A DNA stretch of 64,000 nucleotides from Desulfamplus sp. (GTDB lineage: Bacteria; Desulfobacterota; Desulfobacteria; Desulfobacterales; Desulfobacteraceae). Made by a program: the position numbers and the translations under genes. Every line of letters starts with the position of its first letter. Position 1 is the stretch's first letter. The stretch is taken from positions 31,223 to 95,222 of the forward strand of contig JADFZQ010000012.1 in NCBI GenBank assembly GCA_015232455.1, written 5' to 3'. The notes under the pieces were generated by a model. It was not told where the DNA came from, did no database searches, and saw only the letters and a list, made by a program, of their open reading frames with translations. Below are positions 18,176 through 24,338 of this stretch, in pieces.

Positions 18176-18250
18176 TGGAGGCGGCTTCCAGATTTGAACT
18201 GGAGAATAACGGCTTTGCAGGCCGTCGCCTTACCGCTTGGCCAAGCCGCC
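18176..18250 (-). tRNA. tRNA-Cys (GCA)
   Basis: Reverse complement folds with GGCGGCT/AGCCGCC acceptor stem, GCA anticodon (cctGCAaag), TTCAAAT T-loop, encoded CCA. Confidence 0.95.
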
Positions 18251-18261
18251 TTTTTAGTATC

Positions 18262-18336
18262 TGGAGCGGGAAACGGGATTTGAACCCGCGACTTCGACCT
18301 TGGCAAGGTCGCACTCTACCACTGAGTTATTCCCGC
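18262..18336 (-). tRNA. tRNA-Gly (GCC)
   Basis: Reverse complement folds with GCGGGAA/TTCCCGC acceptor stem, GCC anticodon (cttGCCaag), GGTTCAAATCC T-arm, encoded CCA. Confidence 0.95.
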
Positions 18337-18461: not shown

Positions 18462-18974
18462 CTATTGCTTATTTCGTTCAAGTAGATTTATCTCTTCTGA
18501 TGTAAGAACCTTATCAATATCAAGAAGTATTTTAACTCCTCCTTCTAATTTTGCCATCCCAAGAATATATTCAGAATCGAGACTTGTGCCAAATGAGGGA
18601 GAATCTTCAATATTTTCTCCTTTTATATTTAAAACTTCAGAAACAGAATCTACAACTATCCCAATAACCATCTCACCATAACTTGCTGTTATTTCAACAA
18701 CAATAATGCAAGTTCTCTCTGTGTATTCACTCTCTGGTATTGAAAAACGAAGTCTTAAATCAATTACAGGAATAACCTTGCCTCTAAGATTGATAACGCC
18801 TTTAACAAAATTTGGAGTTCTTGGCACAGATGTTATCGGCATCATTCCAATAATCTCTTTTACCTGCAATATCCCTATTCCATATTCCTCACGAGCTAAA
18901 GAAAAAGTAAGATATTTTCCTTCTCTATCATTAGAATTAATGTTTAATTTCTCTTTTTCTAATCTTTTTTCCAT
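18462..18974 (-). CDS. cheW: CheW-like chemotaxis adaptor
   Basis: 170 aa; FSLAREEYGIGILQVKEIIGMMPITSVPRTPNFVKGVINLRGKVIPVIDLRLRF is a canonical CheW core. Confidence 0.95.
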   Translation of the reverse strand: MEKRLEKEKLNINSNDREGKYLTFSLAREEYGIGILQVKEIIGMMPITSVPRTPNFVKGVINLRGKVIPVIDLRLRFSIPESEYTERTCIIVVEITASYGEMVIGIVVDSVSEVLNIKGENIEDSPSFGTSLDSEYILGMAKLEGGVKILLDIDKVLTSEEINLLERNKQ

Positions 18975-19056: not shown

Positions 19057-20829
19057 TTACTTCTCGGCAGCCTCTATAAATGTATATATTTTAGCAATCA
19101 TCTTGGTTGTCCATCTGTTCTTACCTGATAGAGGTTTTATCTCTTCGTTGTTCAAAATTTCAGTAGTCTGCTCTACAGTATGCCCATCTTTTCTTAGCTT
19201 TATAATAATATTGATAACTTCAGTTTTATATTGTTCAAAATTCTTCTCAAGTGATGCTTTAGGTTTATCAATCTTAAGTGGATGAAATGGTTCATTTTCT
19301 CTTTCAATAAGAGCTGACAGATCGCTCATAATATCGTCTTGATTTATAGTATCATTTCGTTTATCATCTGAAATAAGCGACATGAGATCATCAACATCGC
19401 TGTCTAAAACAGCGGGCTTAAGGCTGCTCACATCTTCATCAATAAGAGCTGATAGATCGTCCATAATGTCTTTTTCTTTAAAATTATTATCCAAAAACAG
19501 ATTATTAGATGAACTATGTGGGTCATTATCAATAAGTGACATAAGATCATCAACATCACTATCCAGTATCTCTGGCTTTATATCATTATGACGCTCATCT
19601 TGATCTTCAATGAGTAAGGATAGATTATCTAATGTTTCGTCTTGATCTTCAATGAGTGCAGATAAGTCGTCTATCTCATTATCTTTATAATCTCCTTCAT
19701 CCTCAATAAGTTCGGATAGGTCGTCTATCTCATTATCTTTATAATCTCCTTCATCCTCAATGAGTGCAGATAAGTCGTCTATCTCATTATCTTTATAATC
19801 TCCTTCATCCTCAATAAGTTCGGACAGGTCGTCTATCTCATTATCTTTATAATCTCCTTCATCCTCAATGAGTGCAGATAAGTCGTCTATCTCATTATCT
19901 TTATAATCTCCTTCATCCTCAATGAGTGCAGATAAGTCGTCTATCTCATTATCTTTATAATCCCCTTCATCCTCAATGAGTTCGGATAGGTCGTCTATTT
20001 CATTATTTAGGGTATCTTCGAGATCGTTAGTAATATAAGGTGAGTTGGGAATCTCTTCGTCTTGAACTTGAAGCGTATCAGACATTTGTTCGGAAGCAGG
20101 TTTAGTAGCAGATTGTGATTCAGAGAAGATATTGCCAAGAGGTAATGCTTTAAGGAAATCTGCTGATATGTTTTTAATTGCATCTGCAATGTTATTCATT
20201 GCATTGGCTTTATGTTGCTCTGCATCAGCACGCTTTCCAAGGGCGTAAGCTTTCTGCTGTTCGGCTTCTGCTTTTATCTTTTCAGCTTCGGCTTTCTGCA
20301 TCTCAGCCTGAGCTTTTTTCTCTTCAGCTTCGGCTTTACGTTCTTCTGCGGCTGCTTTTCGCTCCTGTGCAGCTATAATCCTCTCTTGTTGGTTATAAAA
20401 TTTTTCAAAAAGAGCAGAAATTAACTGTATGCTATCATTTACCTGTAACGATTGATTTATTGATCTTGAAGGGTCTGGAACATCTTGCATAACAGATTGA
20501 AGTGAGGGGATAAAAGAGTTTAAAGAGGGTGAGATAATCTGGCTTTGTTCGTTTTTTGTCTTGTCATCAAGAGCATTATCAATCTCTGTTGGAAGCATAC
20601 CTGAGTTAATCTTTTCTGAGATAAATTTCAAAGTATGCAAGGACTCTGGCTGGTATAATTTCTCTCCATCTTTATCAATATATGACAACCATTTATTAAA
20701 TCTGCTTAACCAGAACCTTACAGTTGCATTGCCAATATTTAGTTCTTTTGCCAACATTGATGGAGTCATTAAATTATTTGAAAACATTTTTATCCCTTGA
20801 TGTTTATTTGTTGACGAATTATTCATCAA
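19057..20829 (-). CDS. HTH protein with Ala/Glu/Lys coiled coil and acidic DDLSxLIED tandem repeats
   Basis: 590 aa; MerR-like N-terminus (SMLAKELNIGNATVRFWLSRF); (KAEAE)n coiled coil; 12 copies of DDLSxLIED-type motif; C-terminal recombinase/HTH-like region (LRKDGHTVEQTTEILNNEEIKPLSGKNRWTTKMIAKIY). Confidence 0.8.
   Translation of the reverse strand: MMNNSSTNKHQGIKMFSNNLMTPSMLAKELNIGNATVRFWLSRFNKWLSYIDKDGEKLYQPESLHTLKFISEKINSGMLPTEIDNALDDKTKNEQSQIISPSLNSFIPSLQSVMQDVPDPSRSINQSLQVNDSIQLISALFEKFYNQQERIIAAQERKAAAEERKAEAEEKKAQAEMQKAEAEKIKAEAEQQKAYALGKRADAEQHKANAMNNIADAIKNISADFLKALPLGNIFSESQSATKPASEQMSDTLQVQDEEIPNSPYITNDLEDTLNNEIDDLSELIEDEGDYKDNEIDDLSALIEDEGDYKDNEIDDLSALIEDEGDYKDNEIDDLSELIEDEGDYKDNEIDDLSALIEDEGDYKDNEIDDLSELIEDEGDYKDNEIDDLSALIEDQDETLDNLSLLIEDQDERHNDIKPEILDSDVDDLMSLIDNDPHSSSNNLFLDNNFKEKDIMDDLSALIDEDVSSLKPAVLDSDVDDLMSLISDDKRNDTINQDDIMSDLSALIERENEPFHPLKIDKPKASLEKNFEQYKTEVINIIIKLRKDGHTVEQTTEILNNEEIKPLSGKNRWTTKMIAKIYTFIEAAEK
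19650..20008 (-). repeat. 54-bp tandem repeat, ~6.6 copies, in frame
   Basis: Unit caatgagtgcagataagtcgtctatctcattatctttataatctccttcatcct and its agttcgga[t/c]aggtcg variant; encodes 18-aa DNEIDDLS[E/A]LIEDEGDYK. Confidence 0.95.
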
Positions 20830-20885
20830 CTCATATCAAAAACCATAAATACAGTCAAAACTTCTGGAAAATAATTTTTATCCGT

Positions 20886-20914
20886 TTGACACTGTAATAT
20901 GTGGTTGATATAGA
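20886..20914 (+). promoter_or_regulatory. Candidate sigma-70 promoter for prkA-yeaH
   Basis: TTGACA - 17 nt - TATAGA in the divergent intergenic region. Confidence 0.45.
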
Positions 20915-21013: not shown

Positions 21014-23095
21014 TTGATGCAAGGAGGACAAATGGGTGAAAATAATGATCCAAAATCTCTTTTAAATCATATTGATTCTGTAAAAAAAGGCAAAAGAACA
21101 TTTGAAGATGCTTTTCAAGGTGTTGCAAGAATGATCCTTGAATCAGGCGTTGAGAAGATCAATGTCAAAGGCAGAACTACATACCAATTTGGTCTATTCA
21201 GTAAAGGAAAAAAACACCTTGTTGGAATGTATGATGAGATAAACAGTTTTGTCTCTTTTGTTAAAGATGCTTCAGAAGGCGGCTCATCAAGGGAGATGGC
21301 TTTTGTTCTTGTTGGTGAACCTGGAAACGGAAAAACTTTTTTTGTTGATTATCTTTGCGATGCGTACAGAAATTTTCTCTCAAGACAGGAGAATAAAAAA
21401 TATAGCTTTAGGTTCAAAAAATTAGATGAAATTGAAGGATACGGCAAGATAAAGGTTATTGAATCTCAAACTTATGAAGATCCAATGATTCTTGCAATGA
21501 ATATCATGGAGACTAAAGCTCAATCAAAAGAGTATTTGGCTAAACAGTTTAAATTTTCTGAAAAAGAGATTGACAGCCTTTTTGCCCTTTATCGTCCACT
21601 TGGAGCTTGTTCTGCCTATATTTGGAATCAGATAAGAGAGTATTGCGAAAATGATATTGAAAAGATGCTGTCATTTACTGAAATTACTCAAGTGCCGCTT
21701 ACAGAAAGTCTTGGAACAATTACAGGCAAATATCCTGCGAAAGATAAAATTACATCATCTGCTGTTGATCTTCTTGGTGAGGAATCGATTCAGAGGCTCT
21801 TGCATATTACAGATACCAATAACCCCTACCGTTTTGATTTGCGGCGTGGTGCTTTGGCAAGAGTTGCTGGCGGTGGTATCCATTTTAGCGATGAGATTTA
21901 CAAAAACAAAAAAGACCTTGTGCAGGTCTATTTAGGAGTAATTCAAAATAGAACCATTGAGATTGACGGATATAAATGGCCCATTGACACATTGATTATT
22001 GCGACAAGTAATAACTCTGAGTTTAATACATTTTTGGCTGAAAAAGAGGAAGCACCAATTGTTGACCGCTGCCGTATATGTTATGTGGCACACAACACTG
22101 ACTACAAACTCCAAAAAGAGTTGACAGGTTATGCCATTGGAAATGATGCCAAAAGCACGATTAACCGCGAAAAACTCCATCAAGACCCAAATCTAAATTA
22201 TGCTGCTTCTGTCGGTGTTGTTCTAACACGCCTCCCAAGATCAGAAAAATTAACCCCGGTTGAGACAATGAAGCTATCTGCTGGTGAAGTTGCTGGTGAA
22301 AAGAGCCTTAAAACACTTGGGGAGTTGATTGATACCCTTAATCAAGATACTGACATTACCAGAAGATTTGGACAAAAAGGTCTTGGTCAGAGAAATCTTG
22401 GAAGAGCGATTCAGTTATTGCTTGAAAGTTCTGAAACCAATGAAGGCAACTGTATGTTTGCACTTGATATTTTCAAAACTCTTGAAACAGTGGTTCTTGA
22501 TTATGTTACTGATTCAGGTGATCGGGCAAAATTTATGGAAGATTTAAAAACAGCACGCGGACTTTATCGCGAAAGAATTATGACTGAAATCTTTAACGCT
22601 TATATGGACGAACCTCTTGCAATCAAAAAAGATGTTATGAACTATGTTAATATGATTATTGGAATTGATGCAGAACATCTTGGAGCTGATATGATGTGGA
22701 AATATAAAGACCCGCAATCAGGTGAACTAAAAGCTATGAAGATCGATGAACGGTATATTAAAAATGTTGAAGATCGGCTTGGGCTTAAGACTGAAGAGCA
22801 AAGATCGTCATTTAGAAATACCATCAGAAAGATATATGGGCAAAAACTCTCTCTTGATCCAAATTATGACTTTATGGATAATTTAGAACTGGTAAAGGCA
22901 ATCACTGATGTGAGGCTCAAATCTGACATTGCTGGTGCTGGAAGTCTTGTAGGTGCCCTTGCAAATCGTACAAACGAAGAGAACCAAAAACTCCACGATA
23001 GAATGATAAACACCATGATTAACAAACTTGGTTACTGCAACACCTGTTCTCAAAAGACCATTGAATATTTCTGTAGTCAGGAAGATGATAAATAG
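21014..23095 (+). CDS. prkA: PrkA-family serine protein kinase / AAA+ protein
   Basis: 693 aa; Walker A VGEPGNGKTF; downstream gene is yeaH/DUF444. Start likely at 21032 (ATGGGTGAA, preceded by aaggaggac). Confidence 0.93.
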   Translation: MMQGGQMGENNDPKSLLNHIDSVKKGKRTFEDAFQGVARMILESGVEKINVKGRTTYQFGLFSKGKKHLVGMYDEINSFVSFVKDASEGGSSREMAFVLVGEPGNGKTFFVDYLCDAYRNFLSRQENKKYSFRFKKLDEIEGYGKIKVIESQTYEDPMILAMNIMETKAQSKEYLAKQFKFSEKEIDSLFALYRPLGACSAYIWNQIREYCENDIEKMLSFTEITQVPLTESLGTITGKYPAKDKITSSAVDLLGEESIQRLLHITDTNNPYRFDLRRGALARVAGGGIHFSDEIYKNKKDLVQVYLGVIQNRTIEIDGYKWPIDTLIIATSNNSEFNTFLAEKEEAPIVDRCRICYVAHNTDYKLQKELTGYAIGNDAKSTINREKLHQDPNLNYAASVGVVLTRLPRSEKLTPVETMKLSAGEVAGEKSLKTLGELIDTLNQDTDITRRFGQKGLGQRNLGRAIQLLLESSETNEGNCMFALDIFKTLETVVLDYVTDSGDRAKFMEDLKTARGLYRERIMTEIFNAYMDEPLAIKKDVMNYVNMIIGIDAEHLGADMMWKYKDPQSGELKAMKIDERYIKNVEDRLGLKTEEQRSSFRNTIRKIYGQKLSLDPNYDFMDNLELVKAITDVRLKSDIAGAGSLVGALANRTNEENQKLHDRMINTMINKLGYCNTCSQKTIEYFCSQEDDK

Positions 23096-23156: not shown

Positions 23157-24338
23157 ATGATAACTCTTGATGAACTTTTAGAAAAGGACAAGAAGCGTGA
23201 AGAGGACGGATTTAAACGCAAGATTCGTATTGGTCGCATTGTCAAGCCTGTCAGAGGTGGTGGAAAGGAAAAAATTGTAGTTGTTCCAACAACTGTTGAG
23301 GAAAAATTTGTCCACGATGAAATTCAGCTTGGCACAGAAGATGGAGAAGGTGAACCAAACGGTGGCACAGGTGATGGCGAAGAGGGTGATATAATAGGAG
23401 AAGAGAAAATTCGTCCATCTGAAGGAGAGGGCGAAGGACAGGGTCAGGGTGATGGAGAGGGACCTGGTCAAGGTTCAGGTGGTGAGCATGAATTTGAATC
23501 AAATGCCTATGAACTTGGTAAAGTTCTTTCTCAAGACTTTGAGCTTCCAAACCTTGTTGACAAAGGTGGAAAGCGAACTCTTGTAAAATTTACCTATGAG
23601 ATGACAGATAAGCACAGAGGTTTTGGTCAGATTCTTGATAAAAAAGCCACGTTACGCCGTATTGTTGAGACCAATATAAGTCTTGGCAATATTCCTGATG
23701 TATCTGAAATTGACAGTGCCTCATTTATTGTCTCTCCTTCTGATATGATATACAGGATACTTTCAAGAGAAAAACTATATGAATCTCAAGCACTTATCTT
23801 TTTCCTTAGAGATTATTCAGGCTCAATGAGCGGTAAACCTACTCAAACAGTAGTATCTCAGCATGTTATGCTTTATTCATGGCTTTTGTATCAATATCAT
23901 AAGCAAGTGGTTACCCGCTTTATTCTGCATGACACTGATGCTCGTGAAGTTGATGATTTTTATAAATATTACTCATATAAAGTTGCAGGAGGGACAAAGG
24001 TTGCCGCAGCTTACAAAATGGTAAATACTCTTGTGGAAAAAGAAGGGCTTGCAAGAGATTATAATATCTATGTTTTTCATGGCACTGATGGTGATGATTG
24101 GGATACACAAGGCAAGGAGGCTGTTGAAGAATTAAAAAAGATGATCACGTATTCATCACGCATTGGTATTACAGTTGCAAAACATAGTTACTCTAAATCA
24201 AAACCAACAGAGGTAGAAAATTATATAAAGGCATCGGGGCTACTTGAAAAACACCCAAATCATATACGAATGGATGTTATGGACGAAGATGCAGAAGATG
24301 CAAGAATTATTCAAGGTATTAAAAATCTTATCTCTTAA
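23157..24338 (+). CDS. yeaH: YeaH/YhbH-family DUF444 protein (vWA-like)
   Basis: 393 aa; Gly/Glu-rich N-terminal linker; FFLRDYSGSMSGKPTQ MIDAS-like motif; follows prkA. Confidence 0.92.
   Translation: MITLDELLEKDKKREEDGFKRKIRIGRIVKPVRGGGKEKIVVVPTTVEEKFVHDEIQLGTEDGEGEPNGGTGDGEEGDIIGEEKIRPSEGEGEGQGQGDGEGPGQGSGGEHEFESNAYELGKVLSQDFELPNLVDKGGKRTLVKFTYEMTDKHRGFGQILDKKATLRRIVETNISLGNIPDVSEIDSASFIVSPSDMIYRILSREKLYESQALIFFLRDYSGSMSGKPTQTVVSQHVMLYSWLLYQYHKQVVTRFILHDTDAREVDDFYKYYSYKVAGGTKVAAAYKMVNTLVEKEGLARDYNIYVFHGTDGDDWDTQGKEAVEELKKMITYSSRIGITVAKHSYSKSKPTEVENYIKASGLLEKHPNHIRMDVMDEDAEDARIIQGIKNLIS

Follow-up and report, generated by a model that had tools for sequence, protein, structure and literature searches.

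What might a DNA-binding protein do with a disordered acidic tail that repeats one short motif a dozen times? The question is raised by a gene in a 64,000-nucleotide stretch of a Desulfamplus sp. contig (JADFZQ010000012.1), the whole of which is referred to here as the window. The open reading frame at this locus runs on the minus strand from a TTG at 20829 to a stop at 19057 (590 aa), and this is the span that the original prediction assigned to the protein. The stop at 19057 stands, but the TTG is simply an upstream in-frame codon, and translation of what we call the array protein most likely begins with the ATG at 20787, giving 576 aa, because AAGGGATAAAA lies 5' of this ATG and the conserved part of the aligned orthologues starts there. 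The gene and the parts of its product are as follows.

19057 to 20787, minus strand: array-protein gene, 576 aa, ATG start at 20787, stop at 19057
20548 to 20775, minus strand: N-terminal MerR/RacA-type winged helix, residues 5-80 (Pfam, AlphaFold and VIA-align)
20173 to 20454, minus strand: single long Ala/Glu/Lys helix, about 93 residues, 112-205 (AlphaFold)
19306 to 19995, minus strand: disordered acidic region with 12 DDLSxLI-type motifs (sequence patterns; pLDDT mostly under 50)
19060 to 19239, minus strand: C-terminal three-helix, HTH-like domain, residues 517-576 (AlphaFold; weak match to Pfam Recombinase)

Two folded ends joined by a helix and a disordered array

It is clear from our results that the array protein is real and is built of four parts, a winged helix, a long helix, a disordered acidic array, and a C-terminal bundle, and that each of its ends falls in a known fold class. 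The N-terminus, originally described as looking like a MerR-type DNA-binding domain, does score above the Pfam MerR_1 threshold (PF13411; 27.8 bits, cut-off 21.6, E 2.8e-6), is modeled by AlphaFold with a pLDDT of about 90, and superposes in VIA-align on both RacA (5i44_B; Z 9.9, rmsd 1.6 over 68 residues, 25% identity) and TnrA (4r24_B; Z 10.5, rmsd 2.3 over 82 residues), so that Pfam and fold comparison alike place the winged-helix DNA-binding domain of the MerR family here. The RacA DNA-binding domain occupies ranks 2-4 of 568 in the Foldseek search with this domain, the best sequence-profile match of the head is of the TnrA/GlnR type (E 0.0036), and the NCBIfam RacA model matches one orthologue weakly (E 0.042; 13.9 bits against a cut-off of 165). 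RacA, which anchors the chromosome in B. subtilis, likewise has a DNA-binding head followed by a helix, but it is much shorter than the array protein and is not known to carry an acidic motif array. The classical MerR proteins CueR, CadR, PbrR, and BmrR also resemble it, in that a long helix comes after their winged helix (Z 9-11). Such regulators, however, carry a C-terminal effector-binding domain (PMC5859096), in place of which the array protein has the disordered array and the HTH-like bundle.

In the MerR family, a long helix comes immediately after the winged helix and forms an antiparallel dimer. In the array protein, a low-confidence linker (residues 82-114 in the AlphaFold model) separates the winged helix from the Ala/Glu/Lys segment, the predicted coiled coil of the earlier account, which AlphaFold models as one long helix spanning residues 112-205. 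This helix is encoded by 21-nt (7-residue) direct DNA repeats, and its length differs between orthologues in the alignment. At the other end, the C-terminal domain folded alone is a three-helix bundle with a pLDDT of 93, which bears out the HTH-like half of the earlier description, whereas the label "recombinase-type" is weak by sequence, since the match to Pfam Recombinase (PF07508) scores 15.9 bits, under the cut-off of 21.1. The Recombinase domain of large serine recombinases does align with this domain, but the array protein has no catalytic domain; one relative (L061) exceeds the same cut-off (25.1 versus 21.1 bits). Seven of the 10 best Foldseek rows for the C-terminal domain are DNA-binding proteins (five serine-integrase chains, SETMAR, and Pax-6), all of them non-significant (E at least 1.8), the best VIA-align Z of 6.6 is not decisive, and PDB sequences gave no significant match.

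The original prediction recognized no family with this architecture, and there is indeed no named one in Pfam or NCBIfam, nor did PDB sequences yield a family with the full arrangement; NCBIfam matches to TolA and similar proteins are driven by the coil and fall below cut-off. The protein is not described among the matches listed in literature searches on the motif and on MerR combined with acidic, Desulfobacteraceae, or PrkA.

Conservation of the motif and distribution of the protein

The acidic region (34% D+E, 5% K+R) holds 12 motifs by a looser pattern, in agreement with the count first given, and 11 by the strict pattern D-[DN]-L-[SGTAMN]-x-L-[IVL], whereas 2,000 shuffles of the region averaged 0.02 and never gave more than 1. 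AlphaFold places 4-residue helices at some motifs within the disorder. Seven motifs lie inside a 54-nt DNA tandem, a recent expansion, and the remaining five lie in unlike linkers; the 14-residue tandem arrays in the orthologues of two other genomes (G016 and G029) are recent expansions as well.

The original prediction would have been refuted had the repeats been absent from all orthologues, but they recur: all 35 full-length orthologues, each from a distinct genome, keep 3-12 motifs, set in unlike linkers at spacings of 10-109 residues. These 35 comprise 19 aligned copies, with 4-12 strict motifs each against shuffle means of at most 0.02, and copies from 16 further genomes, once the G021 duplicate and the G033 gene, which is split, are set aside. 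The alignment leaves out G033 (split by a stop), G001 (assembly gap), L040 (cut by a contig end), and L058 (start unclear), the last of which, from G032, is included in the later motif count of the further genomes, and duplicate loci (L005/L034, L006/L035, and L008/L033/L036) were counted once. Among 127 distinct motif 12-mers, Ser occupies the pattern-free position 4 in 92, the residue just before the motif is L, M, I, or V in 114, and the residue just after it is D or E in 91, while the near-invariance of the D, L, and hydrophobic positions arises partly by construction, as the search pattern required them. Selection maintains this short hydrophobic-acidic motif while its copy number varies.

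The array protein is present in 57 of 86 Desulfobacteraceae genomes, the family to which Desulfamplus belongs, and its closest named relatives are Desulfamplus records. A full copy also occurs in one genome from another family of the same order (G051). In a phylum-wide sample of 395 genomes, the full architecture appeared only in the window's own genome, and the other 21 genomes with matches had only the MerR-like head, the coil, or the C-terminal domain. Coil-only, array-like, or C-terminal-only proteins (G052, G054, G055, and G057) were not counted as orthologues. Three small proteins (L126, L129, and L130) have an MDDFLHxLR- or MNEFLKQLR-like start and a coil but no MerR head, two of them share the C-terminal domain of the array protein, and the three are likely a sister family. 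Within the host genome, a DNA pattern for DDLSxLI gave 11 matches, eight in the array gene and three in short non-coding frames, against two for a reversed-pattern control; a further protein search for other copies of the array there returned weak coil matches only, as did a search of PHROGs (coil-driven or weak), and plasmids returned no match.

Genomic neighbors

The genes and the upstream block flanking the array gene in the window are listed below.

20788 to 20912, minus strand: upstream block conserved in four Desulfamplus copies (alignment)
21014 to 23095, plus strand: prkA (yeaG-like AAA+ protein), Pfam PrkA 124.4 bits, divergent neighbor
23157 to 24338, plus strand: DUF444 (yeaH-like), Pfam DUF444 104.3 bits, downstream of prkA
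18462 to 18974, minus strand: cheW, Pfam CheW 136.6 bits, same strand as the array gene and 82 bases downstream of it

The prkA gene adjoins the array gene in 20 of 25 orthologue genomes, divergently in 19, and is followed by DUF444 and then SpoVR in the loci inspected. Two genomes with the array gene gave no PrkA match (G015, 99% complete, and G051, 97%), eight of 34 other family genomes have PrkA without the array gene, and the two genes are on different contigs in G009 and G011. As each is found without the other, we reject PrkA as an obligate partner. Within the upstream block, about 65 bases (20845-20912) are nearly unchanged across the four Desulfamplus copies and possibly form an operator or promoter; the block may hold a promoter of the form TTGACT-17-TATGAG, the hexamers having been picked out by eye, and it has no second copy in the window at up to 3 mismatches.

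On the downstream side, cheW follows on the same strand in six of the seven Desulfamplus contigs that show this side; in G007 a PrkA fragment stands there instead, and the G008 contig ends inside the array gene. This adjacency is confined to Desulfamplus, and the adjoining CheW is the order's ordinary CheW, with 65-78% identical counterparts in many genomes that lack the array protein, so cheW was rejected as a general conserved partner. Nor does the 61% likeness between it and the CheW portion of a receiver-NMT1_2-CheW fusion amount to a specific link, ordinary CheW proteins being closer. Further downstream, the minus strand carries tRNA-Cys and tRNA-Gly genes (window positions 18176-18336).

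Outside Desulfamplus, the most constant neighbor is a 312-aa NMT1_2 solute-binding-like protein, which has no signal peptide evident by eye and is taken as cytosolic. In every one of the 48 family genomes outside Desulfamplus that have both, its gene is convergent with and adjacent to the array gene (gap 20-254 bases), and it is likewise the convergent neighbor in G051, where no prkA was found. Of 86 genomes, 54 have the two proteins together and 26 have neither, so that presence agrees in 80, with three discordant in each direction. NMT1_2 is found without the array protein in G003, G004, and G020 in this comparison, and separately in G047. Co-presence is not independent evidence of function, however, because adjacent genes are lost together: within genera g13 and g14, the pair is gone as one block from between prkA and ispD in G027 and G030. 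Desulfamplus has the two genes at separate places, and there their presence is uncorrelated (six genomes with both, two with the array protein only, and two with NMT1_2 only, several of them incomplete), which implies that joint loss explains much of the correlation elsewhere.

Cytosolic NMT1-like domains can be regulatory: among the PDB sequences that the NMT1_2 protein matches are the nitrate transporter ATPase NrtC and one entitled "C terminal regulatory domain." For this reason and for its constancy as a neighbor, NMT1_2 is the first candidate for a partner of the array. The host genome also encodes NMT1_2 relatives fused to a receiver (L121:4984-6354) and to a receiver plus CheW (L119:4225-6234), resembling a CheV-like coupling protein with a solute-binding-like domain, a combination not described among the literature matches listed. 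A conserved protein of about 436 aa (L120:7641-8948) lies by ispD and the NMT1_2 gene (L120:5754-6689) and holds the same place in other genera; its host copy has no Pfam match, and another copy has a faint HPr match.

Possible roles of the array

The multivalent docking platform that was originally proposed for the tail is a plausible idea that fits the retention of the motif and gains strength from the orthologues, with docking itself a step that we infer. The explanation we currently favor, and only tentatively, is that the array protein is a DNA-tethered multivalent docking regulator comparable to TnrA/GlnR, most likely coupled to NMT1_2 or chemosensory signaling. The Bacillus nitrogen regulators TnrA and GlnR share the MerR-like winged helix and have, without a coiled coil, an unstructured C-terminus that docks a partner protein, glutamine synthetase (PMC5859096), and GlnR senses nitrogen by binding the feedback-inhibited form of that enzyme (PMC9249791). 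The long helix, the array of 3-12 motifs, and the C-terminal HTH-like domain set the array protein apart, none of them being described for TnrA/GlnR in the sections of PMC5859096 drawn on here. Under the docking regulator model, the array protein would dimerize and sit on DNA via its terminal domains, DNA binding being predicted from their folds, and the long helix would act as a rod. On binding, each motif would form a short amphipathic helix against its partner, a single array protein could thereby gather several partner copies, and motif number would tune avidity or capacity. With less assurance, we suggest that the partner may be the cytosolic NMT1_2 neighbor or its receiver/CheW-fused relatives, that the ligand or signaling state of this partner may set the activity of the regulator as glutamine synthetase sets that of TnrA/GlnR, and that the output may be chemosensory or motility related, or may concern neighboring genes. 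It is rather improbable, by our estimate, that the protein goes further and serves as a chromosome-bound scaffold whose variable-number array brings cytosolic solute-binding sensors, and thereby receiver/CheW components, together on DNA and so links the sensing of metabolites to taxis or transcription.

Among the alternatives, the one that comes next after the docking regulator, still unlikely in our judgment, is a local regulator of the divergent prkA-yeaH-spoVR stress operon, with the acidic motifs serving in the manner of an activation tail to contact RNA polymerase or a co-regulator. The frequent divergent arrangement with prkA, the MerR-type winged helix, and the 5' block conserved in the shared intergenic region of the four Desulfamplus copies all fit such a regulator; array genes without PrkA, PrkA without array genes, and the separate contigs of G009 and G011 speak against it, as does PMC5859096, which in the sections drawn on here describes no such tail on MerR regulators. 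Slightly less probable is a RacA-like protein that binds, bridges, or anchors the nucleoid through two DNA-binding ends, a rod, and a flexible tail, with the motifs bringing it to a polar or chemosensory structure. The RacA domain is among the closest folds of the head, the NCBIfam RacA model weakly matches an orthologue, RacA is itself an architectural protein (PMC5859096), and nucleoid-associated chemosensory arrays exist (PMC6952110), but TnrA, GlnR, and classical MerR proteins match the head about equally well and the C-terminal fold matches to DNA-binding proteins are non-significant. That the array is a functionless low-complexity expansion through replication slippage seems very unlikely: seven near-identical 54-nt units in the window and the 14-residue tandems elsewhere are what slippage would leave, yet the motif persists across genera in unlike linkers and at irregular spacing. 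We give the least credence of all to the array as a multi-site substrate of the neighboring PrkA in which the motif serine would accept phosphate, a notion suggested by the prevalence of Ser at position 4 and by the prkA neighbor, as array genes occur without PrkA and Ser is found in only one of 10 motifs in G024 and none of seven in G007; the same two genomes led us to reject a serine phospho-site array as a general reading.

Another candidate is a sink or dock for phospho-CheY (receiver) built from many copies of a motif related to the N-terminus of FliM. That FliM motif, LSQxEIDALL, is a CheY-P-binding segment that stays disordered in the unbound state (PMC6700473, PMC9126983), the host FliM carries LSQDEVDSLL, and both motifs are short, disordered, amphipathic, and acidic-hydrophobic, following a similar pattern, D-D/E-hydrophobic-D/S-x-L-hydrophobic. 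Besides the cheW neighbor, FliM and the array protein tend to occur together, both in 86 genomes (50 with both, seven with the array protein only, 11 with FliM only, and 18 with neither; Fisher 3e-6, a test that ignores kinship) and in the 42 better ones (29, two, three, and eight; Fisher 5e-5, again ignoring kinship). The resemblance is attractive by eye but failed a profile test: with a profile of the 127 motif 12-mers, the host FliM site ranks only 3,903 of 110,233 windows, against a background of 267 ORFs (113,170 residues) drawn from the window and 18 host-genome stretches rather than the whole proteome, and membership of the FliM motif class is therefore unsupported. In addition, FliM has a single copy of its motif, the SQ before its core is missing from the array motif, and seven genomes have the array gene and no FliM match. 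G451, G452, and G475, each at least 92% complete, have the array protein but no FliM match, which weighs against the docking regulator too, as the co-occurrence with FliM weighs for it. The host genome does encode another acidic protein with SQDDIDxLL arrays, but this true array is a different sequence. Taken together, we consider a phospho-CheY dock improbable, a shade more so than the chromosome-bound scaffold. The other acidic protein (L190:3885-5660, minus strand, 592 aa) lies on host contig C1, upstream of L182, the stretch with fliM. It carries five or more FliM-type SQDDIDxLL motifs, a segment that looks transmembrane, and a C-terminus weakly resembling FliL (PF03748, E 0.013, below cut-off); it is itself a candidate multi-copy CheY-P dock in a flagellar locus.

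Eukaryotic regulation makes routine use of disordered tails that carry multivalent arrays of short motifs, but such arrays have seldom been recognized on bacterial DNA-binding proteins. As the motif of the array protein is kept while its copy number varies naturally, avidity, partner choice, and DNA tethering are directly testable in this family, which also points to a signaling module of NMT1_2 solute-binding, receiver, and CheW components in sulfate reducers.
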